Assembly (NCBI GenBank): GCA_030068145.1
Contig: JAPJBO010000209.1
Coordinates: 1 to 64,000 of the forward strand
From: Diplonema papillatum
Lineage: Eukaryota > Euglenozoa > Diplonemea > Diplonemida > Diplonemidae
Length of the DNA: 64,000 nt
Reading direction: 5' to 3'
Of the stretch, positions 2,946 through 53,516 are shown in pieces; positions within the stretch are counted from its first letter, which is position 1, and every line of letters begins with the position of its first letter. Under the pieces are notes generated by a model. It was given only the letters and a program-made list of their open reading frames with translations. It searched no databases and was not told where the DNA came from. The position numbers and the translations under genes were made by a program.

Positions 2946-3429
2946 CGCATGCTGAATCAGTACGTGTACAGTGCTGAATCAGTACGTTATCAGCACGTAA
3001 TATCTTTTCTGCAGATTCATCTGGGGAATCAACCGCGGCAGATCCTGCTGTTGCTTACCACCGCGACACTGGAGGGTTGAGGCCGGAGAGGAGGCAGAGG
3101 CAAGACATGCAACACTGGCAGGTGAGCCCCCCATGCTCTATTTCTTTTTTGCCTGACCCTACGTACTGATTTTCAGTAGGTATTTAGCTCCAAGACTAAA
3201 GAGCTGCGTAAGCCCTGGTTGCATGTGAATCCACGTGGTCGATGTACTCAAATAAATCTGGGTGCCCACCATTTGATGATTCGACGGGGACGGCTTCAGA
3301 TTTAACATCCAAAACGGCAACAGAGTTAGTTTGTCGACAACGAACCAACAAAAGAACAAAACAAACCTGCTTTTCTCCGGTTACCTGTGGCCGTCTCATT
3401 TCTATTTCTTCCGCTTTCTTTTTGATATA
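2946..3429. other. No gene; short palindromic repeats and a LINE 3' UTR relic
   Basis: The motif GCTGAATCAGTACGT or close variants recur at about 2950, 2975 and 3160. A diverged 3' UTR-like block (ATCCACGTGGTCGATGTACT) lies at about 3229-3248. No coding frame is supported. Confidence 0.4.
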
Positions 3430-3540
3430 AAGCACCTGTTTTGTAGGAAATGCTCGAGGAAGGTCGTCAGTTGCAAATTGCTAATGCAGGAATGTGCGAG
3501 CTGCACGAAACACAGGCGAATCTGGATTTCAGTGCCGGAT
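3430..3540 (+). repeat. Dispersed repeat R1, copy 2 (diverged)
   Basis: It has AGCACCTGTTTTGTAGGAAA at its left edge and CGAAACACAGGCGAATCTGG further on. This is the same order of blocks as copy 1 at 369, with more substitutions. Confidence 0.5.
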
Positions 3541-3903
3541 GCGATAGGGTAGGCGGTTGGGTTAGCCTCACCGAAAATACCAATACCATATTTCGAAGAA
3601 GAAAAACAAATGACGAACCACACAAATGCTGAACCGTAATAATTCTGTACCAAATGGCCTGCACCACGGGGAGTTTGGTGCAGGATTATGACGCTTCCGC
3701 AGCTTTCCCATAAAAGGTGTCACGGGATAAGCCGGCAGCCGCTGCTTAACGGCAAAGGAAGCACACCAAGAGAGCACAGAAAGAAACGACAAGAGGAGAA
3801 GAGAACCAGACGGAGAGAAAACACGTCAGAAAACCGCGAAGACGAAGCGCAGTACTGCACTGTGTTTGGGATCGTCAAGATCCTACTGATCCTGTCAGAA
3901 AGG

Positions 3904-5505
3904 ATGGGACGAAAACATCCCACGGTAGGGGCAGAGAAGGCGCCGAAGAAGGAAGCGAAAGCGGAAGTGAAGGCCGAACCGCGAAAGACGCAGGCCAACT
4001 GGAAGGCGGACGCACCGGCAGTGCGGCGAGAAGGCGCGTGGACGACGGTGCCGCCGAAAGGAGGCCTGAAGAGCGCAGAGGCGAAGCCGAAGCAGGAGAT
4101 GAAGAGCGGTTGGCTGAAGGTCGCGACCGCCGGGAAGGAAGCGCGGCGAACGACGACTGCAGATTGTGGTAAGAAGCCCGATGGCGAGAAGAAGCCCGTT
4201 AGCAGAGGAAAACCTGCTCTCAGAGCGAAGGATTGGGAGCTACCGCTGATCGATGCGAAGCTGCTCCTCGACGAATCCGAGAAGAAGGCGAAGCCAGAAG
4301 GCGTAATCGAAGCAACGATGGGCGAAGGGAGGCGCGTGCTCCAGTACGCCGACGAGCTGACGCAACTGGAGACGGAAGGGGTACGTTTGGTGATCGTCAC
4401 CCCGCGATCCATAGCCGAAGACTCGACGCGCGAGCTAGTGTTCCGGGAAGACGGGTCAGTGGAGTACGCGCACGTGACACTGCGCGGAGCCAAAACGGCG
4501 AAGCCATCTGGAGGACAGGTGACGCTGGATGGGGACGCCTCGGCAACACGCGTGCTCGTGTTCACGGCACTCCATCGCGAACTGACAGACGAGAAGGTCG
4601 AGATTCTGCGGAGTGAGACGAAGGGGGCCGGGGCCACCGACACGCTGTGCGCGAGATCGGCAAAGGGGGCAGCCGTCACCATCGAGAGGCGACACCGTTG
4701 GCGCCACGCTAGGATGTCCGATCGTAGCACGTGCATGGTCCGGGTGCCGCAAGCACACGCAGCCAGCCTCCTCGGGGCAAGCGGACACGAAGGGCTGTTC
4801 TGGTCGGCTCCGAGGTTCGTAGAAGGTGGGGAGTCCCACAAAGTTCAATGGCTTGCAGAGGACGCGACCTTGGAAGAGGCCCTGGCTCTTACAGCCTTAC
4901 CGGGGACACACGGTCTGGTGCCGGCGAGAGCACGATTGGGTGTACGTTACAGCGCGGAAGGGGAGCAGCTCGAGGCGTTGCGAGAGGCGGCAGGCATGCT
5001 GCTCGCTCCGGAGCTGCCGGACGAAGGAGTTGCGTACTTTGTCACGGGCGGCCGGAACGAGCACGCCGAAGACATCGTGCAGGCGCTCGTGCGCGCGGGC
5101 TGGGTCGGCAGGACGCGGAAGACGTTCTCGAAGAAAGGGAGGACGCGGATGGTCGTGACGGCGCAAAGCCCGCCCCCAGCGGAGGTGCTCAGGCGCGCCG
5201 GACGGGACCCACTGCACATCCGCGAGCTCGCCCACGGTGACGAGAGAAGGGCGGAAGCCAAAATCTGGCACGGGAAGGTCCCCAGAGTAACCGTACCTGG
5301 AGAACCACAGGCCGACGAAGCGGTAAAAGAAGAGCACTGCCACGAATGGCAGGAAGCAGCGCGCAACAAGAGCGAAACTGTATGCTCGGTATGCGACACC
5401 ACCCGCCAGAAGGGAACGATGATGAGGGCGTGCGCATGCGAGTCGAAGATCTGCGCCCCTTGCTTCGCGGCGAGGAAGAAGGCGAAGCAGGACGAGGCGG
5501 TCTGA
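3904..5505 (+). CDS. LINE ORF1 protein (putative RNA-binding, C-terminal zinc-binding motif)
   Basis: A 533-codon frame precedes the EN/RT frame, the position of LINE ORF1, whose products usually bind element RNA. ATG 3904 is chosen for its good context (A at -3, G at +4); the frame stays open upstream to an ATG at 3688, in sequence that looks like 5' UTR. Roughly the first 120 residues are Lys/Ala/Glu-rich and basic. The middle holds a repeated-looking alpha/beta region with AGWVGRTRKTFSKKGRTRMV near residue 400. The C-terminus has a Cys/His cluster (CHEW, VCSVCDTT, CACESKICAPC) resembling a RING or FYVE-type zinc site. No RRM or retroviral CCHC knuckle is visible. A similar GW..(V/I)..KRGRT(L/M)xVV segment occurs in the relic at 25305-25775. 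It ends at TGA 5503-5505, after which the same frame stays open into ORF2. Confidence 0.75.
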   Translation: MGRKHPTVGAEKAPKKEAKAEVKAEPRKTQANWKADAPAVRREGAWTTVPPKGGLKSAEAKPKQEMKSGWLKVATAGKEARRTTTADCGKKPDGEKKPVSRGKPALRAKDWELPLIDAKLLLDESEKKAKPEGVIEATMGEGRRVLQYADELTQLETEGVRLVIVTPRSIAEDSTRELVFREDGSVEYAHVTLRGAKTAKPSGGQVTLDGDASATRVLVFTALHRELTDEKVEILRSETKGAGATDTLCARSAKGAAVTIERRHRWRHARMSDRSTCMVRVPQAHAASLLGASGHEGLFWSAPRFVEGGESHKVQWLAEDATLEEALALTALPGTHGLVPARARLGVRYSAEGEQLEALREAAGMLLAPELPDEGVAYFVTGGRNEHAEDIVQALVRAGWVGRTRKTFSKKGRTRMVVTAQSPPPAEVLRRAGRDPLHIRELAHGDERRAEAKIWHGKVPRVTVPGEPQADEAVKEEHCHEWQEAARNKSETVCSVCDTTRQKGTMMRACACESKICAPCFAARKKAKQDEAV

Positions 5506-5508
5506 CTA
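5503..5508 (+). promoter_or_regulatory. Candidate stop-codon readthrough site, UGA-CUA
   Basis: ORF1 ends with TGA immediately followed by CTA. UGA CUA is the best-known leaky stop context in eukaryotic and viral mRNAs. From 5506 to the first ATG of ORF2 at 5611 the same frame has 35 sense codons and no stop, so ORF1 and ORF2 are separated by this one codon. A role in making an ORF1-ORF2 fusion is inferred. Reinitiation at 5611 is the alternative. Confidence 0.5.
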
Positions 5509-5610
5509 CGACGCCACTACGGTGAGACGACGAAGGCGGCACCGGCAGAGGCCTCCTCCCATCAACCCGAACGCGCCCTGTCGGCGAGCCTCGTACGACC
5601 ACGACAATCG

Positions 5611-8526
5611 ATGCCCTGGGCCTATTGCCGTACTCGGCAGGTCCGCCAGTTCTCCCGACCGACAACGCGCACGACGAGCCGACACAGACGATCCGGAGGA
5701 CGATGCCACCGCCGACCCACGCCCTTCTGTCGAAGCCCGCCGGAGCAGGTCAGACGGACGAAGTTATCAGTTGCGGAGGCACGCCGAAAGCACCTGCTGC
5801 TAGGAGGGGACATCGAAGAGAATCCCGGCCCCCGATGCTGGAGCGTCGCCACACTCAACGTGTCCTCGCTCTTGCGGTACATCCCGGCAGTGAAAGGGGT
5901 GTGTACCGACGTCCTCTGCTGTCAGGAGGTGACACTCCTAGAGACGAGAAGGCCGGAAGCGGAGATGCATCTCGAAGACTGGAAGTGTCACTGGGGGAGT
6001 GAACCGATGGGGAGGAGCTGTCGATCGTCCGGAGTCAGGTCCGAGACGAGCGCGAGGAACGGGGGAGTTTGCACCTTGGTCCAGAAGCCCGTGCCGGCGT
6101 TCTCTCCCACGGCGCTGCACCAGATGATTGGCAGTGCGTACACTGATGCCCGCTTTCTGCACACGGCGGTCGCCACGGGAACGGGCAGCACGTTCGTGCA
6201 CGTGATCAACCTGTACTGCCCGTCAGGAAACGACAGGTCGGTAGTCGACGACAGGGAAGCATTGTTGGAGAGGGTCCTCTTCGCCGCAGCGGACAGCCTC
6301 GGCGACGTTCCAATCATAGTCGCCGGGGATCTTAACACCGACGAGGCGAGATCCCCGACACTCCGGAAGGCTCTGCGGAACGGGTGGTCCGACGCAGCGC
6401 GACTACAAGAAGTCAGCACAGGGCAGGCCCCCGACGCCACCTTCGCCACCTGTAGCACCCCGGGCACGCGCATCGACCGCCTGATGATGAATCGGGTCGC
6501 GGCGCAAGCGTTCTCGAGCTGCACTACGACGATCGTGGACGTACCTGGACACCGACTCGTGACTGCCACTTTCGATCTCGAGGCGTTCGACCAGACGGTT
6601 TGGCGGTACCGGTTGCCGCGGCCGATTCAGGTCAGACCGCTCCAACAGCAATTGGCCACGGTGGAAGAAGACTCAGCGCGGGCACGTCAACTCCTAGAGC
6701 AGTCGAGGTTTGCCCAGGCAGTGGGGAACAGCGACGTCGACGAGGCGTGGCGAGAATGGTCTGCAACGGCGGAAAGGCACCTGCTGGACTTGTGCCAAGT
6801 TCAGACGTCAGAACGTCGGCGTTTCACAGGACGAGGTCGTCTGCTGGCACCAACGCGTGCGAGGGCGACAGCGAGAAGTTCCAATGACGGCACAGGAGCA
6901 GCCTCGGGTGTTCAACTCCGACTGCGCAACACCATCCATCGCCTAGAGCAGCTACACCGGCACCTTACGAACCGAGGGGGACCACAGTCGACGCCGAGTC
7001 AGATGCAGAACTGCTGGAAGAACTGTAGGAAGCTCGCGAGTGAGTGCGCAGCGCTACGCGGAAAGCCGATGACGGCATGGGACGAATTGCCCAGTCTCCA
7101 GGAGTGCAGCAGTCTGTTGCAGGCAGTCCGGGAGAGGAACGGAGCGATCGGAAAGGCCAGCATGGAGGCTCGACGTGCAAAATACTTCACCGGAGCGACA
7201 AAGCGAGCGGACGAAAACAGGCGGAGTGTCGTAGCGTGGTGCCGACGGCAACACAGGCAGGAAGCGACCACGCTGGAAGGTGAGCGGACCACGGCAAACG
7301 CAGAGGAAATGGACGCAGTGCTTCAGGACGCATGGGATCCGGTCTTCCGCGCCTACAAGGACGGTCCCGAGCCGCCCTACACACCTTTTGCTGGCCGGTA
7401 CCAGCGCTACATCGATGGACACCCTCAGGAAGTAGGCGAGATCACGGGGACAGAGCTACGCGCGCTGCTAACGAAGAAAGGCGTCAAGGGTGCTTGCGGG
7501 ATCGACGGCTGGAGGATGGCTGAGCTGAAGGCACTCCCCGACCTGTACCTTGAATCCCTGGCCACACTGTTGAACCTGGTCGAGAGAACGGGGATCTGGC
7601 CGCAGGCAATGCGAACAGCTCTCGTGAGTATGATTCCGAAGGGCGACGACGGGCAACCGCTCAACATGCGACCGATAACGGTGACATCCTGCGTGTACCG
7701 CCTCTGGGCCTGCCGGCGTCTGAAGGATGTTGCGGTGTGGCAGGAGAGTTGGGTCGAGGAGGGTCAACACGGTTTCCGACCTGGCCACCGGGGAGAGGAC
7801 CCGTTGTTTACAATGACGCTCGAGATCGAACGCGCCTTGCTGAGCGGCGAGCCACTGTGCGGGCTATCTCTGGATTTCTCGAAGTGCTTTGACCGCGTCC
7901 CGCGGGAAATCGCACTCCGCCTCATGCAGGACCTCGGGCTCCACTCCCGGATTCTGAAACCGCTGAAGTCCATCTACGACACCCTCGTCAGGCGGTTCAA
8001 GCTCCCCCTCGGGGTCGGAAAGGAGTTTCAGGTGACGAACGGCATTCTGCAAGGGTGCCCTATCTCGGTCATCCTGATCAACGCGCTGCTGTCAGTGTTG
8101 ATGAAGGCGGTAAAAGTCGAGGCACCAGGCGTGTCGACGCAGTCGTACGCAGACGATGCGAATTTGTTGGCGAAGCACTCCGAGGCAGATCTGCAACGGG
8201 GCGCGGACTTAGTCGATGAGTTCTGCGCGCTGACCGGCATGTCGCTGAACATGGAGAAGACGGTAACGTTCGCGACGGGGCTGGGCCGTAGGACGAAGAT
8301 CTTCCGCAGCAGCACGGGCGAGCAGTTCGCACAGAAGGAATCGCTGAAGTGCCTGGGGGCTAAGGTGAGCACCTCACGCAGCGGCCGCGACCACTTTGAC
8401 TCTTCCCGGTTTGAAGCAGCAGCAACCACAGCTCGGAACCTACGGCACGTCCCAATTCCGAGGCAGCAGAAAACCCTCATCGTTCAATCAGCCGCCGCTC
8501 TCGCGAGAATGCCGCCCTACGACTGA
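5611..8526 (+). CDS. LINE ORF2: 2A peptide, AP-like endonuclease and reverse transcriptase (N-terminal part before the frame break)
   Basis: This protein nicks target DNA and reverse transcribes the element RNA. After about 65 basic residues comes the 2A motif (residues 66-74). The endonuclease domain starts at VATLNVSS, with CCQEV (catalytic Glu), INLYCPSG, AGDLNTDEA and GTRIDRLM. Its final motif is VPGHRLV, where most APE domains have SDH; the His is kept and the Asp position is changed. The RT domain (about residues 600-900) has IPKGDDG, GQHGFRPGHRG, LSLDFSKCFDRVP (first catalytic Asp), NGILQGCPIS and SYADDANLL (catalytic YADD), followed by GMSLNMEKT. The frame stops at TGA 8524-8526, in the thumb just after ALARMPPYD, and homology continues in the next frame. 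ATG 5611 is the first Met; the open frame extends back to 5506. The sequence is G/C-rich at third positions. Confidence 0.9.
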   Translation: MPWAYCRTRQVRQFSRPTTRTTSRHRRSGGRCHRRPTPFCRSPPEQVRRTKLSVAEARRKHLLLGGDIEENPGPRCWSVATLNVSSLLRYIPAVKGVCTDVLCCQEVTLLETRRPEAEMHLEDWKCHWGSEPMGRSCRSSGVRSETSARNGGVCTLVQKPVPAFSPTALHQMIGSAYTDARFLHTAVATGTGSTFVHVINLYCPSGNDRSVVDDREALLERVLFAAADSLGDVPIIVAGDLNTDEARSPTLRKALRNGWSDAARLQEVSTGQAPDATFATCSTPGTRIDRLMMNRVAAQAFSSCTTTIVDVPGHRLVTATFDLEAFDQTVWRYRLPRPIQVRPLQQQLATVEEDSARARQLLEQSRFAQAVGNSDVDEAWREWSATAERHLLDLCQVQTSERRRFTGRGRLLAPTRARATARSSNDGTGAASGVQLRLRNTIHRLEQLHRHLTNRGGPQSTPSQMQNCWKNCRKLASECAALRGKPMTAWDELPSLQECSSLLQAVRERNGAIGKASMEARRAKYFTGATKRADENRRSVVAWCRRQHRQEATTLEGERTTANAEEMDAVLQDAWDPVFRAYKDGPEPPYTPFAGRYQRYIDGHPQEVGEITGTELRALLTKKGVKGACGIDGWRMAELKALPDLYLESLATLLNLVERTGIWPQAMRTALVSMIPKGDDGQPLNMRPITVTSCVYRLWACRRLKDVAVWQESWVEEGQHGFRPGHRGEDPLFTMTLEIERALLSGEPLCGLSLDFSKCFDRVPREIALRLMQDLGLHSRILKPLKSIYDTLVRRFKLPLGVGKEFQVTNGILQGCPISVILINALLSVLMKAVKVEAPGVSTQSYADDANLLAKHSEADLQRGADLVDEFCALTGMSLNMEKTVTFATGLGRRTKIFRSSTGEQFAQKESLKCLGAKVSTSRSGRDHFDSSRFEAAATTARNLRHVPIPRQQKTLIVQSAAALARMPPYD
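5806..5832 (+). other. 2A (StopGo) translational recoding peptide, GDIEENPGP
   Basis: The codons read GDIEENPGP, an exact match to the D(V/I)ExNPGP consensus that makes the ribosome skip a Gly-Pro bond. It is preceded by a Leu-rich stretch (HLLLG), as in viral and retrotransposon 2A sequences. The break would fall between Gly 5827-5829 and Pro 5830-5832. That would free the endonuclease-RT, starting with Pro, from whatever lies upstream. 2A sequences at LINE ORF N-termini are known in trypanosome L1Tc/ingi and some animal LINEs. Activity here is inferred. Confidence 0.9.
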
Positions 8527-10705
8527 AGCCGTGGAGAAGCTGGCGACAGCGTTAACGTTAGCGATCTGGGGGCCGAAGAATCCGAAGCGCTCCTCGGAAG
8601 TAGTCTTGGGAGTCCTCGAAAAAGCCCACTTGACGCACCCTGCGACGGCGACGGCGTACCGAATAACCGCGGATTTCTACAGCGCCTGTGGGAGACTGCC
8701 GCACCTGATGCCGCTGATGACGGAAGTCCGGCGCCTATACGGCGAACGAGTGACCGCAGCCCTTGGCCCGGTGGGAACCGCGGTAAGGCACGGCCTGCAA
8801 CCCTGCGGCCACACGTGGAACGGCGGCCCGCCGTCGTCCGTCAACCTGGACGGAGCTGCACTCCGACCCCTGGCAATGTCCGCCTCCTCGCGAAATCACA
8901 TCATCCGCGACAACCTGCGGAACCGACTGTGGAAGCGGTTGGAAACACGACGGCCAAGCTTCTCCGGCATCACCAACATCGCGATCGAGTCCACCAACGC
9001 TCTATGGACAACGCGCCACTGTCCGCCCCAGAACGCGCTGCTGATCAGGGTTGCCCTCGCAGGTGGCGTGAACACCGCCGAATACACGTCGAGATTTCGC
9101 CAAGGCGGAAGCCCCGCCTGTACGTTGTGTGACTCGGGAGCATTGGAAGACGAGCACCACGTCTACTGGGATTGCACGGCCTTCGAGAACATACGCACGA
9201 AGCCCGAGTACGCGGGGATCGCACAGTCCGACAGGAGGCTCTGGCCGAGCTGCCTGCGGGAGCACGGAATCGTGACGCCGGCGACACGGGAATTTGCCGG
9301 GCCGGTACAAGCGCTGATGGCAGAGATCCTGGCGGAGCGGGCGCGCCGGGTCAGCGTTAGATGGCTAGAACGTAAGGCGGCGACCCCCTGGGAGCGCTGC
9401 GCGCAGATGCCAACGGCGAAACGCGAGTTCCCGTTCCGGCGCATCGCCCCGGCCTGGGCGTGGCTACGCTACTGGGACGAAGGGACATTCCTGGCAGCGA
9501 TCGACTGGCTCTCGGGCCTCGAATGGTCATCGGATGGCGACATGGCAGCGGTAGAGGCAGCTATCGACTTCGAGCTGTTCTCGGGCCTCGACATCAAGGC
9601 ACCTAGCAAGGCGGCCAAGACGCATCGGGAGAAGGCCAACGGGATGCGCTGCATGTTGAGCGCAATCAACAAGCTGGCCGTGCAACAACAACTCGGCAAG
9701 TGCCTCCCTGGCGACTTCAAGTCGAAAACGACAGCCTTGTCGTTCATAGGCCTGAGCAGCGTACCCGGCTTCCAGCCCCGGCCCCGCCACCGCATGCCCG
9801 AAACCGGGCCGACCATCATGCAGCAGGTGAAAACCGGCTACGGCACAGCGCCGGCGTACCCGCCCGAGCGGACGGACAGAGCGCGGCGATGGGTAATCCC
9901 CAGAGCGCCACTGGCCAACCCGGATCCCCTGCACCTCCCACACGCAGTGCCGGAGGCGACGAAGAATGCCCCCAAGTGCGCTACCCATCACAAAGGGAAG
10001 TGCGCAGTCTGTCGCGCACTCGGACACCACCACGCCGACAACGACGGCTTACCTCCGGCCGTCTGCGACCGGCACCGCATGACGAGATGCGTGGAGTGCA
10101 ACACGCCAACAGCGTGCTGCAAGGCCGGCCACCATGACTGCCGCGAACACGCCCGCGGTCCGTGTGACGACTGCCGCGGCTTACCGACGCTAGCGGAACG
10201 GCGGCCGTCAGCCTGCTGCAAAAAGGGCCACCACGTGCCAGCGCCCCCGAAGCCAGCCCCCGCTAAGCCGAAGCCAACAACGCCGCGGAAGAAGGGCCGA
10301 CAGAAGCCGACGACACCACCGCGCATGAAGAGGACGCGTCAAGCGTCCCCAAAGGCGGCCAAGATGGCGAAAAAGCACGCTCCGACCGAGCCGGCCCGAG
10401 CGACACCACCAAGGAAGGGGCAGAAAAGAGCCCGACTCCCGACACCACCGAATGACCCGGCGGGAAAACCCGGAAAAAAGCACGCGGCGCGAAAGCGCAA
10501 CATTTCGAGAATGGAGCTGGATATCACCAGCCCTGCCACCTCGACTTCATCCTCATCCATGTCAGGATCGCCCCCTCGAGCGACTGCTTCGGCAGGACAG
10601 CCGGCGCGAAAGCGCAACAAACGAAGAATGGAGCTGGATATCACCAGCCTATTATCACCGTCCTCGTCCGCTTTGAGATCGCCCTCGGACGACGTATTCA
10701 AATAA
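8519..10705 (+). CDS. LINE ORF2 continuation: RT thumb, CCHC motif, conserved AIDFELFSGL region and Cys/His-rich tail
   Basis: This continues ORF2 in the +1 frame, from TEAVEKLATALTLAIWG, which is typical RT-thumb sequence. It includes CTLCDSGALEDEHHVYWDC, a CxxC-H-C finger like those downstream of RT in many LINEs. Next is a Trp-rich region (RIAPAWAWLRYWDE, then AIDFELFSGL at about 9560-9590) that is conserved in the fragments at 10.8-11.1 kb and 22.4 kb. From about 9975 there is a Cys/His-rich block beginning CATHHKGKCAVCRALGHHH, with CCKAGHHDC and CCKKGHH, probably several zinc sites. The last 170 residues are Pro/Lys-rich with two direct repeats of ARKRN..RMELDITS. There is no RNase H. 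The frame change near 8515-8526 looks like a single-base deletion but could be a +1 frameshift. Confidence 0.75.
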   Translation, partial: TTEAVEKLATALTLAIWGPKNPKRSSEVVLGVLEKAHLTHPATATAYRITADFYSACGRLPHLMPLMTEVRRLYGERVTAALGPVGTAVRHGLQPCGHTWNGGPPSSVNLDGAALRPLAMSASSRNHIIRDNLRNRLWKRLETRRPSFSGITNIAIESTNALWTTRHCPPQNALLIRVALAGGVNTAEYTSRFRQGGSPACTLCDSGALEDEHHVYWDCTAFENIRTKPEYAGIAQSDRRLWPSCLREHGIVTPATREFAGPVQALMAEILAERARRVSVRWLERKAATPWERCAQMPTAKREFPFRRIAPAWAWLRYWDEGTFLAAIDWLSGLEWSSDGDMAAVEAAIDFELFSGLDIKAPSKAAKTHREKANGMRCMLSAINKLAVQQQLGKCLPGDFKSKTTALSFIGLSSVPGFQPRPRHRMPETGPTIMQQVKTGYGTAPAYPPERTDRARRWVIPRAPLANPDPLHLPHAVPEATKNAPKCATHHKGKCAVCRALGHHHADNDGLPPAVCDRHRMTRCVECNTPTACCKAGHHDCREHARGPCDDCRGLPTLAERRPSACCKKGHHVPAPPKPAPAKPKPTTPRKKGRQKPTTPPRMKRTRQASPKAAKMAKKHAPTEPARATPPRKGQKRARLPTPPNDPAGKPGKKHAARKRNISRMELDITSPATSTSSSSMSGSPPRATASAGQPARKRNKRRMELDITSLLSPSSSALRSPSDDVFK

Positions 10706-10778
10706 CCCTAGCCTATGACAAATGCAAGCTTACCCCTGTGGTACCTGCATTTCAAGTTCACACTGCTTAACGGCTTAT

Positions 10779-12245
10779 CTTGCGGAACGGGCTGGGCTCG
10801 AAGCACGTGGCTGGGTGGCCAGGAACCCCACGACCCCCTGGTCGAGAGCGAATGCGATGCCTGCCGAGAAAATTGACCACCCCTTCGCGCGGATTGCCCC
10901 GGCATGGACGTGGGAACGGAACAAGACCTGGGGACTACCGACGTTTTATGCGTTGGTAGCGTGGCTGTCGGACATGCAATGGACCGAGAACGGGCAGGCG
11001 TCAATGCTGGAGCTTGCGATCGACTTTGAACTCTTCTCGGGCCTCAGCATGCCGCTGCACGGGAATGCGCCGAAGGGGGTGAGAGAACGGGGAAACGTCC
11101 TGCGCTGCATGATGAGCGCGTTGGACAAGCTGGCGGCACAGCAAGGGCTGGGAAGCTGCATGAGAGGAGAGAGGGTGTGCCCGACGACGTCGCTGTCGTT
11201 CATGGGCATCACGGGGATATCGGGTATACGGCCCAGGCCACGCTTTCGCGAGGCACACACGGGGACGATACTTGAGGAACAAGTGAAAGGAAGCGATGTA
11301 GGGACGCAGTGCCCGACGTACCCTGACTGGACGATCGGGAGAGCGGCGAGGTGGGCCCTGCCTGCCCCACCACAACTGCACCCAGACCCCGTGCATATGC
11401 CGGGTGTCGGTATAGAGAAGGCACTCGTCACGTGCGCGACCCATCACAAAGGGAAGTGTGAGGCGTGCAGAGCACTCGTCCGAAGGGACGTTCCCACGGT
11501 AGAGATGTGCTGCCGGCACCATCACCACGCGAACGATGGGCAGCCGATCGCGGTGTGCACAGAGCACAGCACGACGAAGTGCGCGCGAGTGCAAGACGGC
11601 GGCGGCGTGTTGCCGCAGCGGGCATCATGCCTGCCGCACGCATGGCAGAGGAACCTGCCAAGAGTGCAAAAGGCTCCCTACGCTGACGCAGAGGCGACCG
11701 GCGGCATGTTGCAGCCGCGGCCACCACCAGTCCAACAAGCCGAACGTCCAGTCAACCCCCGGACGCAACAAGAAGAAGAGGCCCTCCTCACCCACCCAGG
11801 TGGGCGTACAGCGGGAAACGCCATTAGGAAAGCGAGCGGCGCGAGCGCCGCTCGCGGCAACGAAAAAGGAGACGGCGACGACCGGACGGGCGACCAAGAG
11901 GCCGCCACCAACGCCAGGAACCAGCGAACGACCAGCGCTGAAGAAGAGGGTGCTTGGCACCCCGAAGGAAGGCCCGATCGCCGGCCGCAAGCGGAAGAAG
12001 ACGAAGGCGACCACCCCCGACTCAGGGGTGCATCGAAGGAAGAAGAAGGTTCCGAGGGCAAGCAGCTCTCAGAAACGACCGGGGACCACGGGCACGCCAA
12101 TGCCCTCGAAAGTGAAAAACGGGCACACGTGCCCGCCCTCGTACTCGCCGACTCAGTCTCTGGAATCGCAAGAAAGCCAAACCCCGCTAGCTCCACAAAT
12201 GCTCGACCTTGACGACGCGATGGCAGGTGACGACGTCATCCGATA
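10779..12245 (+). pseudogene. 5'-truncated, frameshifted LINE ORF2 C-terminal fragment (related family)
   Basis: It begins abruptly at the codons for LAERAGLEARGWVARNPTTPW, equivalent to LAERARRVSVRWLERKAATPW of the upstream element at about 9330. It then follows the same order: FARIAPAWTWER, LAIDFELFSGL, and a Cys/His block CATHHKGKCEACRALV at about 11440. A frameshift near 11590 moves the finger region into the next frame (KTAAACCRSGHHAC, CCSRGHH), which continues through a basic Lys/Arg/Pro tail to TAA at about 12243. Identity with the full element is only moderate, so this is a different subfamily. The 5' truncation is typical of incomplete reverse transcription. Confidence 0.75.
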
Positions 12246-12385
12246 ACCTGACTTTCAAGGCAGTGCATGTTAATCCGTGTGGTTCATGTACTTAAAAGAA
12301 CTCAATGCTTAACGGCTTATCACGTGGGCGGCCCTGTGATTACCCCCTCAGGTGGCACCACTTTATCTTTAGCCATACGTCAACC
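12246..12385 (+). mobile_element. LINE 3' UTR of the truncated copy
   Basis: It contains TGTGGTTCATGTACTTAAAA, then TGCTTAACGGCTTATCACGT and ATTACCCCCTCAGGTGGCAC. The same blocks occur at 2835-2945 and, more diverged, at 34246-34340. This shared 3' end is probably the RT recognition region. Confidence 0.65.
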
Positions 12386-13059
12386 CCCTTATCAGATTTC
12401 GACATCGATCCAGGGTTGGAAGGGTCGATGCCAAATGCTTTCGAAAAGGACTAAATGAGGTGATTCGTTCGTGGTTAAAACGTCACAACCTCCTGGTCTC
12501 TAGAAACAGTCTAATACCGGTGGTCCGAAATGTGGGCGGTTTGGTTGACGTGCCTTGCTTCGGATTGCGTTGGGCAGGGTTGCAGGGTGTCCGTAGTAGT
12601 GGAGGAAAAGATCCAGAGCAGGGTGGATTTTGCAGCAACCAGGAGAAGCAGAACTCGCCCCTCGCTGTCTACCACCACCAAGCCGGGTTGCTGAGGTCGG
12701 CAAGGAGCCATTCCAGTCACCGGGCCGACGGGGTTGAGCAGAGGGGAGGCGCGCATGGCAACACAGGAGCGCGAGACGGCTGGACGACTCCTCTGCTGAT
12801 CTCCGCCAGGCTCGCGGAAATATTCTCGCGGGCGTTGTAGGAGCAGCAGTTGGAGGAAGCGATAGTAAAGGTATCGGTCCAGGGCTGCGCGTCCCCGGCA
12901 CTGGCCTTGCAAGCACAAAAAAGTTTTCACTAGAAACTCCTGTGGTTAAAAAGCCTTTTATTTCTGGACGGCACTTTTCATACTGGCCTCGCAAGCAAAA
13001 ATCCGTTCTATAAAAAAGCCTTTATTTCCTGCCAGGACTCTAATTTTTTTTATTCCTAA
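12386..13059. other. No gene recognised
   Basis: Frames on both strands (for example 12460-12840 plus) lack motifs. An imperfect repeat, ACTGGCCT(T/C)GCAAGC, occurs near 12900 and 12980, each time followed by an A/T-rich AAAAAGCCTTT block. Confidence 0.45.
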
Positions 13060-51048: not shown

Positions 51049-51290
51049 ATATATAACGGAAGCTGCTTCCGTTATATTTTTCCCAGCTTCCGTTATATAT
51101 TTTTTCTGCTTCCGTTATATATTTTCCAGCTTCCGTTATATATTTTCCAGCTTCCGTTATATATTTTCCAGCTTCCGCTATATATTTTCCAGCTTCCGTT
51201 ATATATTTTCCAGCTTCCGTTATATATTTTCCAGCTTCCGCTATATATTTTCCAGCTTCCGCTATATATTTTCCAGCTTCCGTTCTATAT
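51049..51290. repeat. 21-bp satellite array, left (about 11 units)
   Basis: The unit on this strand is GCTTCCGTTATATATTTTCCA, with a few C-for-T variants (GCTTCCGCTATATA). The same satellite lies in opposite orientation at 52690-53340. Confidence 0.95.
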
Positions 51291-51423
51291 GCTATGTTCT
51301 GATAAAGATTGGAGTGTTTCCATAAGTCACCACACAGAAATGCAGGCCCAAAGTCACCGGAGAAAGCCTAACTAGATAACGAAGAAAGCCTAACTAGAGA
51401 AACAAAAGAGGAACAGCAACAAG

Positions 51424-51804
51424 ATGGAAAGGCAACGAGACGCATCTGGAAACCCCCGACAGCAAAATCAGCAGCAGCTTCCGCACCAGCTGCAACTTCC
51501 GCAGCAGCAGTTTCAGCACCAGCAGCAACTTCCGCATCAGCATCACCAGGCACCGAACCACCCGCAGCAGTTCCAGCACCAGCAGCAACTTCCGCATCAG
51601 CTTTACCAGGCACACAACGGAACGATGTTCCGGTGGGCGTCCTTGCAGCAGGCCACTAAGGCCACACCCCCGAAACCACCATGCAGCGCGGTTCCATCCA
51701 AGAAGATCTGGGGTAGAGCCCCGGCAAGAGCCCTCTTTGAGCTGGCGAGGGCCAGGAAGGCGCATCACAACACCTCACCTTCCATTGACCTCGAACTTCG
51801 CTAG
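51424..51804 (+). CDS. Gln/His-rich low-complexity protein, left copy
   Basis: A 126-residue frame. Residues 1-60 are Gln/His/Pro-rich repeats (QQQLPHQLQLPQQQ, HQHHQAPNHPQQFQHQQQLP), nearly identical to the start of the minus-strand gene at 51893-52564. From about residue 62 (LYQAHNGTMFRWASL) it enters unique sequence that does not match its partner and ends at SPSIDLELR. It has no known domain; the composition is prion-like. It is probably a truncated duplicate whose tail was replaced at the arm edge. Confidence 0.45.
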   Translation: MERQRDASGNPRQQNQQQLPHQLQLPQQQFQHQQQLPHQHHQAPNHPQQFQHQQQLPHQLYQAHNGTMFRWASLQQATKATPPKPPCSAVPSKKIWGRAPARALFELARARKAHHNTSPSIDLELR

Positions 51805-51892: not shown

Positions 51893-52564
51893 TCACGTCT
51901 TCTGCTTCCGCTGCTGCGACCTGCTGCCCTGGGCTGCTCCTTCTGCTTGCGGTGCGTCCCGATGCTGTGCTTGCAGCCCGGCAGCTGGTGGGGCTGCTTC
52001 TTCTGCTCGTGGTGCGTCCCGATGCTGCGCCTGCACCTCCCTGGCCGCTGGTGGGGCTGCTCTTTCTGCCCGTGGTGCGGCCTGATGCTGTGCTGCTCGC
52101 ACGTGCCCAGAGGCTGCGCCTCGCGGTGCGTCTGGATGCGGGTTGTATGGTGCGTCCATATAGGCACCCGGACCGTAGGAGGGCACTGGGTTGTAGTAAC
52201 CCGGATAACCCGCCGGGTAGGAGTACGGACTGTGCTGGTACTGCACAGTCTGGGGCTGAAAATGCTGCTGGTGCTGAAGCTGCTGCTGCTGGTGCTGGTG
52301 CGGCTGGTGGTGCTGCGGGTGCTGAAACTGCTGCGGGTGCTGAAACTGCTGCGGGTGGTACTGTGCCTGGTGAAGCTGGTGCGGAAGTTGCTGCTGGTGC
52401 TGGAACTGCTGCGGGTGGTTCGGTGCCTGGTGATGCTGATGCGGAAGTTGCTGCTGGTGCTGAAACTGCTGCGGGTGCTGAAACTGCGGAAGTTGCAGCT
52501 GGTGCGGAAGCTGCTGCTGATTTTGCTGTCGGGGGTTTCCAGATGCGTCTCGTTGCCTTTCCAT
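51893..52564 (-). CDS. Gln/His/Tyr-rich low-complexity protein, right copy
   Basis: A 223-residue minus-strand frame starting MERQRDASGNPRQQNQQQLP. The first about 110 residues are Gln/His/Pro repeats built from FQHPQQ and QQLPHQ units. Next is a Tyr/Pro/Gly stretch (YSYPAGYPGYYNPVPSYGPG), then Ala-rich repeats with AQHRDAPRAEEAAPPAA. No signal peptide or enzyme motif is seen. Such sequences occur in RNA-binding or phase-separating proteins, but function is unknown. It is convergent with, and shares its leader and N-terminus with, 51424-51804. Its length and ordered low-complexity blocks make it the likelier original copy. Confidence 0.5.
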   Translation of the reverse strand: MERQRDASGNPRQQNQQQLPHQLQLPQFQHPQQFQHQQQLPHQHHQAPNHPQQFQHQQQLPHQLHQAQYHPQQFQHPQQFQHPQHHQPHQHQQQQLQHQQHFQPQTVQYQHSPYSYPAGYPGYYNPVPSYGPGAYMDAPYNPHPDAPRGAASGHVRAAQHQAAPRAERAAPPAAREVQAQHRDAPRAEEAAPPAAGLQAQHRDAPQAEGAAQGSRSQQRKQKT

Positions 52565-52689
52565 CCTGTTGCTGTTCCTCTTTTGTTTCTCTAGTTAGGC
52601 TTTCTTCGTTATCTAGTTAGGCTTTCTCCGGTGACTTTGGGCCTGCATTTCTGTGTGGTGACTTATGGAAACACTCCAATATTTATCAG

Positions 52690-53340
52690 AACATAGCATA
52701 TATAACGGAAGCTGGAAAATATATAACGGAAGCTGGAAAATATATAACGGAAGCTGGAAAATATATAACGGAAGCTGGAAAATATATAACGGAAGCTGGA
52801 AAATATATAACGGAAGCTGGAAAATATATAACGGAAGCTGGAAAATATATAACGGAAGCTGGAAAATATATAACGGAAGCTGGAAAATATATAACGGAAG
52901 CTGGAAAATATATAACGGAAGCTGGAAAATATATAACGGAAGCTGGAAAATATATAACGGAAGCTGGAAAATATATAACGGAAGCTGGAAAATATATAAC
53001 GGAAGCTGGAAAATATATAACGGAAGCTGGAAAATATATAACGGAAGCTTGAAAATATATAACGGAAGCTGGAAAATATATAACGGAAGCAGAAAAATAT
53101 ATAACGGAAGCTGGAAAATATATAGCGGAAGCTGGAAAATATATAACGGAAGCTGGAAAATATATAACGGAAGCTGGAAAATATATAGCGGAAGCTGGAA
53201 AATATATAACGGAAGCTGGAAAATATATAACGGAAGCTGGAAAAAATATATAACGGAAGCTTGAAAATATATAACGGAAGCAGAAAATATATAACGGAAG
53301 CAGAAAAATATATAACGGAAGCAGTTCCGATATATATTTT
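52690..53340. repeat. 21-bp satellite array, right (about 30 units)
   Basis: The unit is ATATATAACGGAAGCTGGAAA, inverted relative to the array at 51049-51290. It is much more homogeneous and about three times longer. Because 21 is divisible by three, a 199-codon frame of YNGSWKI heptads runs through it; this is considered non-coding. Confidence 0.95.
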
Positions 53341-53516
53341 CCCGACTTAAGTGCTTCCGATAAGCTTAGTCCTCTTTTGAACAACATCAGTATAATTCGT
53401 TGTCATTTACCCCCCCCCCCCCCTGAGGCCTAAATTTTGGCCGAGGGGGGTAATTTCCAGGGGGGGGGGTCAGTGCTGATACTAAGCCTGAGACCCAAAA
53501 CGAAGTTGCTAACCCT
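53321..53516 (+). repeat. About 200-bp direct repeat A, left copy
   Basis: It runs from CAGTTCCGATATATATTTTC to GAAGTTGCTAACCCTGGG and includes a poly-C/poly-G pair. It matches 56106-56305. The ACTAGT-ended element lies at its right edge. Confidence 0.85.

Follow-up and report, generated by a model that had tools for sequence, protein, structure and literature searches.

Diplonema papillatum LINE retroelements with ORF1 and the endonuclease-reverse transcriptase in one frame across a UGA-CUN junction and a 2A peptide: candidates for coupled stop-codon readthrough and peptide-bond skipping

The window considered here, the whole stretch of 64,000 nucleotides of Diplonema papillatum DNA that was analysed (assembly GCA_030068145.1, contig JAPJBO010000209.1, positions 1 to 64,000), carries on its forward strand a retroelement in which ORF1 and an endonuclease-reverse transcriptase (EN-RT) ORF2 lie in one reading frame, separated by a single TGA, an open linker and a 2A peptide (Table 1). 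Relatives were sought in the genome of this species (271 Mb, 2910 contigs). As in LINEs, the EN and RT domains are found in one ORF, each above its Pfam cut-off, and 5'-truncated copies occur that begin inside the element (loci L063 and L064, and the window from 10774 onward). No pair of long terminal repeats was found at 3400-12300 among the 20 listed of 28 direct repeat families, and the Pfam search of the window element returned no RNase H match. A weak zf-RVT match, below its cut-off, lies at about 8984-9181 in the C-terminal ORF2 frame. ORF1 (3904-5502) has no Pfam match at E 0.1; six cysteines at its C-terminus do not vary among the five ORF1 sequences that were aligned, which come from family A (that of the window element), families B and C, and the protein P0015. 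AlphaFold models reached a mean pLDDT of 63 for ORF1 (five sequences) and 35 for the AlkB-type linker described below (three sequences), and neither model was used as evidence.

Table 1. Features of the family-A element in the window
Feature	Position	Strand	Remark
ORF1 part common to other copies	3838..5502	+	own start codon (MEEIQQ...) deleted here
Cysteine cluster, ORF1 C-terminus	5383..5463	+	alignment
ORF1 stop TGA, proposed readthrough codon	5503..5505	+	
CTA after TGA	5506..5508	+	CTN in five of five families read
In-frame open linker	5506..5793	+	first in-frame ATG 5611-5613
2A peptide, LLLGGDIEENPG followed by P, proposed StopGo site	5794..5832	+	
Endonuclease domain PF03372	5830..6495	+	Pfam, E 9.8e-11
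Reverse transcriptase domain PF00078	7633..8364	+	Pfam, E 3.3e-25
Frame with ORF2 C-terminus past the frame break	8396..10705	+	ends in TAA at 10703-10705
TGCTTAACGG, at both element ends	3743..3752 and 10764-10773	+	

The window copy is defective: its ORF1 start is deleted and its ORF2 is frameshifted. The Met at 3904 is internal, the ORF1 of other copies starting with MEEIQQ... 40 residues upstream (comparison with P0014); that start position is ATG in 13 of 14 other loci listed and GTG in L009, and about 65 bases containing it are missing here. The frame of Met 3904 is open from 5506 up to a stop at 8524-8526, which is not the true end of ORF2, the window copy leaving the ORF2 frame near 8508. 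Its open frame amounts to 1006 codons, compared with a frame over query residues 1-966 of 1750 codons in nine and 1747 in two of the 49 matches listed. TAA is the ORF2 stop both of family A and of the C/D-type 3' end.

The sequence TGCTTAACGG is found at four positions of the window (2809, 3743, 10764 and 12306) and marks both ends of the family-A element as well as the end of a 5'-truncated C/D-type LINE copy (10774-12315) that adjoins it directly, head to tail; the ORF2 C-terminus of the latter contains a long run of Cys-His motifs. At the element ends, TGCTTAACGG is a possible target sequence or target-site duplication. L063 and L064 also start right after the 3' end of another element, and the arrangement looks like preferred insertion at TGCTTAACGG or behind earlier copies. 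Elsewhere in the window, 21-base tandem repeats form two blocks (51080-51310 and 52572-53390), each in part an inverted copy of the other, with inverted arms at 51101-51603 and 52385-52887.

The junction described by the first-pass annotation is present as claimed: TGA CTA at 5503-5508 is followed by an open frame, no stop precedes the first downstream in-frame ATG (codon 36 after TGA, 5611), and the 2A core DIEENPGP begins at 5809, codon 102, in agreement with the distance of about 100 codons given there. Conservation in other copies, which that annotation had proposed to examine, was assessed from 48 matches listed, comprising 30 loci of which 25 were aligned; the window itself (L002), L022, where the stop is not reached, and L029 were left out of the stop count. 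TGACTA is found in all 22 other family-A loci covering the stop, and the linker is open up to 2A in 17 of these, the remaining five (L013, L018, L021, L023 and L024) being broken by indels or truncation. This conservation is weak by itself because the copies are mostly 98-100% identical. L029, a diverged and decayed locus on contig C629, reads TGA TTG and has stops in its linker. The decayed family-A relative on that contig (C629:29425-30729, including L029 in part) carries four additional head-to-tail repeats of the 2A region and a fifth, incomplete one.

The 2A motifs read in the elements (DIEENPGP, DVETNPGP, DVEQNPGP and DIEQNPGP) conform to D(V/I)ExNPG followed by P, and skipping activity at these sites is predicted. 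The motif was found at 360 DNA sites in the genome and at none with the reversed control; at least eight sequence types occur among the matches listed.

The same layout recurs in further LINE families. Five families (A to E), representing three lineages, share the order ORF1, UGA-CUN and a linker that stays open in frame for 109-345 codons as far as 2A, on the basis of three loci read in B, two in C and one each in D and E. Family B (L058, L059, L060; 67% identity in ORF2) has TGA CTC followed by 162 open codons up to the proline of 2A, family C (L061, L062; 54-55% ORF2 identity) has TGA CTG and a linker of 342 codons, family D (L064) has TGA CTA and 345 codons, and family E (L065) has TGA CTG and 305 codons, most E copies having by coordinates a linker 27 codons longer than that of L065. 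The ORF1 of L064 is 5'-truncated; at other D loci it is open up to the stop by coordinates, as in a 747-codon frame on C166. L063, on C73, is a 5'-truncated copy in which the ORF1 junction is absent. A pattern search of D/E sequences that left six bases free at the place of the stop gave 100 sites, of which 99 had TGACTN. Thirty of these sites are on contigs C1-C261, for which 2A sites were also listed, and 28 of them are followed by a 2A; the distance from TGA to 2A is divisible by three in 25 of these copies (13 at 1032, 11 at 993 and one at 912) and out of frame in three (1028, 829 and 602).

CUA is thus found after UGA in A and D only, CUG in C and E, and CUC in B, and only UGA-CU is constant. 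The group as a whole therefore does not follow a UGA-CUA rule, and the signal that is kept is UGA-CU(N), since B, C and E have CTC or CTG. The first-pass annotation had named a sense codon, a different stop without CUA, or stops in the linker as evidence against its proposal, and such cases exist in part: B, C and E keep the TGA with another third base after CU, and the decayed C629 locus has both UGA UUG and linker stops. At one locus read of each of two families with other 2A sites, F and G, no ORF1-UGA-CUN link was found: in L066 a TGA GAA stands 16 codons before 2A, behind an A-rich stretch, and in L067 the upstream frame is unrelated. L067, which belongs to a different element type, has another 2A-like start (DIHPN...) a short way after the first. 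Relatives of ORF1 at 49-60% identity, in many copies, represent further families. Among proteins from other sources, P0006 matches ORF2 at 52% and P0015 matches ORF1 at 54%, and both may come from other diplonemids; no relative was confirmed in viral or prokaryote contigs.

How far the open frame could be a coincidence depends on the family. Frame 0 of the linker contains no stop, and frames 1 and 2 contain 1 and 1 in A, 3 and 5 in B, 6 and 9 in C, 11 and 7 in D, and 8 and 6 in E. In Markov simulations, frame 0 was open by chance in 429 of 4000 runs for A, 103 for B, one each for C and D, and three for E. The window linker by itself thus proves little, and the case for a non-random open frame comes from the relatives, through the low simulated chance in B to E and CTN after TGA in all five families. 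The dinucleotide CT has a frequency of 0.054 in the linkers and starts only 99 of 1263 linker codons, so that UGA-CU is unlikely to have arisen by chance across three saturated lineages (C, D and E, being closer to each other, were treated as one). Four-fold sites differ at 0.62 between A and B (188/301), 0.64 between A and C (81/126) and 0.70 between B and C (94/134), compared with 0.69 for random sequence. Silent sites between A, B and C are therefore at or near saturation, and UGA-CU can hardly have been kept by inertia. That these are dead elements with a coincidentally open frame, as the 429 open simulations and the defective window copy could suggest, is a very remote prospect given the layout in five families and a linker domain under purifying selection in three.

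This domain is an AlkB-type 2OG-Fe(II) oxygenase. The family C linker matches 2OG-FeII_Oxy_2 (PF13532, E 5.9e-14) and ALKBH8 (3thp, E 6.5e-7), and AlkB-bearing linkers were delimited at L062:1252-2280, L064:549-1583 and L065:704-1618; the A and B linkers have no Pfam domain at E 0.1. H200, D202, H252, R263 and R269 (D numbering) are invariant in the C, D and E linkers and form the pattern HxD...H...R, which we take to be the catalytic residues by analogy with AlkB enzymes. One protein search with the AlkB linker gave a single weak unnamed match (P0018, E 3.4e-4). In this part dN/dS is 0.15 for C/D, 0.17 for C/E and 0.22 for D/E, with silent to replacement changes by branch of 24:14 in C, 5:3 in D and 6:6 in E (one-sided p 1.3e-7, 0.025 and 0.049, respectively), values that indicate purifying selection on AlkB, and hence on the frame downstream of the stop, in all three families. 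Constraint on the linker outside AlkB appears weak or absent, the branch dN/dS values for C, D and E being 0.67, 0.36 and 1.03 before the domain and 0.70, 0.91 and 0.37 after it. The linker gaps between C and D are 33, 21, 12 and 9 bases; those between D and E include 1 and 83 bases, which jointly restore the frame, and those between C and E include 7, 104, 7 and 2 bases, a multiple of three in sum only.

The position of the first in-frame ATG after UGA bears on how this domain would be translated. It is codon 36 in A, 101 in B (with another at 145), 32 in C, 17 in E and 221 in D. Because codon 221 follows the HxD of H200 and D202, an AUG-started D product would have no metal site. A D linker with no ATG before HxD, seen at one D locus, is the strongest single argument for readthrough; a non-AUG start is a less likely route to the whole D AlkB.

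A rival reading is that translation of ORF2 starts afresh, through reinitiation or internal entry, at an in-frame AUG further downstream (position 5611 in the window, near 2A in B), the upstream open frame being incidental. In its favour are the linker AUGs of A, B, C and E, a public gene model of family B (P0003) that starts at an AUG just before 2A, and the reinitiation reported for LINE-1 and SART1 (PMC5972666). We regard it as improbable. It leaves unexplained the UGA-CU of all five families and the shared frame, the run of 100 codons without a stop that precedes the first AUG in B, and the D AlkB domain with no AUG before codon 221; moreover, a 2A behind a fresh start would free only a short leader. 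Removal of the stop from the RNA could be imagined from the nuclear introns of Diplonema (PMC10161547) or the RNA editing of diplonemid mitochondria (PMC12699882), but neither splicing nor editing gives a reason for the conservation of UGA-CU, and this route is highly improbable.

Slightest of all is the prospect that UGA is a sense codon here, by selenocysteine insertion or a reassigned code, even though codon reassignment has been reported in Euglenozoa, for Blastocrithidia (PMC12153298). The window frames use no TGA, and TGG occurs 10 times in 554 ORF1 codons and 17 times in 1001 codons of linker plus ORF2; an internal TGA is found in none of 70 tubulin matches (TAG in one). The residues before UGA are not conserved between families, and no SECIS match was obtained in 3400-12800 at E up to 1. 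Neither SECIS nor any other Rfam element exceeded its cut-off; the only match in that interval was a weak one to IRES_n-myc, below cut-off and on the opposite strand.

The simplest account of the layout is programmed readthrough of the UGA, by which ribosomes would reach the downstream ORF of a two-ORF LINE, followed by 2A skipping; we assign this reading a probability of about 0.8. Most ribosomes would terminate at the UGA and yield ORF1p. A minority would decode it as sense and continue through the in-frame linker, with its AlkB-type domain in three families, and at 2A the Gly-Pro bond would be skipped, so that ORF1p-linker-2A and a separate EN-RT would be released. Two recoding events on one RNA could thus give an excess of ORF1p like that of gag, little ORF1p-linker (or ORF1p-AlkB) and equally little EN-RT. 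The idea of readthrough followed by 2A skipping, put forward by the first-pass annotation, is strengthened by the layout in five families of three lineages and by AlkB in C, D and E, and its strict CUA wording does not hold. UGA-CUA alone has been reported to give 1.5% readthrough in human cells (PMC4132726), a level that would be adequate for a polymerase of which little is needed.

Several observations count against readthrough, among them the variable third base after CU, an AUG 17-36 codons after UGA in A, C and E, the weak constraint on the linker outside AlkB, the C/E gaps that are not multiples of three one at a time, and the three out-of-frame D/E copies. One in-vitro assay lists '<1 (0)' and '1.2 +/- 0.2' for UGA CUC (preprint PMC11601491); taken as readthrough without and with drug, respectively, these values make CUC poorly leaky there, which also counts against it. 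Folding likewise gave no consistent signal of a common downstream stem-loop (z +0.81 in A, -2.26 in B, -1.93 in C, -1.96 in D and -0.94 in E), B having a strong hairpin and A folding no better than shuffles.

Kinetoplastids are the sister group of diplonemids, and the trypanosomatid ingi/L1Tc elements are likewise EN-RT elements of Euglenozoa. In L1Tc a functional 2A shares the frame of the proteins (Heras 2006, via PMC5972666), and autonomous ingi elements encode APE, RT and RNase H, no ORF1 being mentioned in the part of the source consulted (PMC12278014). In contrast, the elements described here have a separate ORF1 ending at UGA, with 2A 102-338 codons further on. In gammaretroviral gag-pol (murine leukaemia virus, UAG), a structural ORF and a polymerase also share one frame across a leaky stop (PMC5009743), whereas here the element is a LINE, the stop is UGA, the products would be split by 2A and RNA structure is not consistently found. 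Vertebrate UGA-CUA(G) readthrough (OPRL1, AQP4, MDH1 and others) resembles the present junction in the CU after UGA (PMC4132726; MDH1, PMC12233894), but the context here is CUN, the next base in A and D is C instead of G, and the extension contains a whole polymerase. A retroelement with an acquired AlkB-type demethylase domain is known from orchid Ty3/gypsy; those are plant LTR elements, and a readthrough stop is not mentioned for them in the passages available (PMC9289625). LINE-1 and SART1 are two-ORF LINEs in which ORF2 is also reached on the same RNA, by termination-reinitiation and not by readthrough (PMC5972666).

The presence of 2A in LINEs of trypanosomes and sea urchin is established (PMC5972666). 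The D. papillatum genome paper counts about 2500 retroelement gene models and, in the portion consulted, does not mention this design (PMC10161547), and the main text of a 2026 StopGo paper contains no diplonemid, euglenozoan, trypanosome or readthrough terms (PMC12846837). Neither a LINE with stop-codon readthrough nor one combining it with 2A was found in the literature searched, which mostly excluded subscription papers, and this does not prove priority. Both devices, readthrough and 2A, are known by themselves; their combination as ORF1-UGA-CUN-(AlkB)-2A-EN-RT in D. papillatum LINEs is apparently new.

It has long been asked how LINEs obtain a little ORF2 protein from a single RNA, and the answers differ between elements. 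The present comparison of sequences suggests a further one, in which stop-codon readthrough is coupled to 2A. With less assurance than for the mechanism itself, we lean towards a fixed double-recoding programme in diplonemid LINEs, in which UGA-CUN sets the ratio of ORF1p to polymerase and 2A frees the polymerase, and in which ORF1p-AlkB, made by readthrough only, could demethylate or dealkylate the RNA or cDNA of the element. Since endogenous loci of D. papillatum can be tagged (PMC12324889), both readthrough and the ORF1p-AlkB product are testable in the host. The predicted ORF1p-AlkB enzyme is one that AUG-based annotation is apt to miss, and, if the proposed programme is true, these elements would amount to a gag-pol system without a protease in a LINE, maintained among deeply diverged families.
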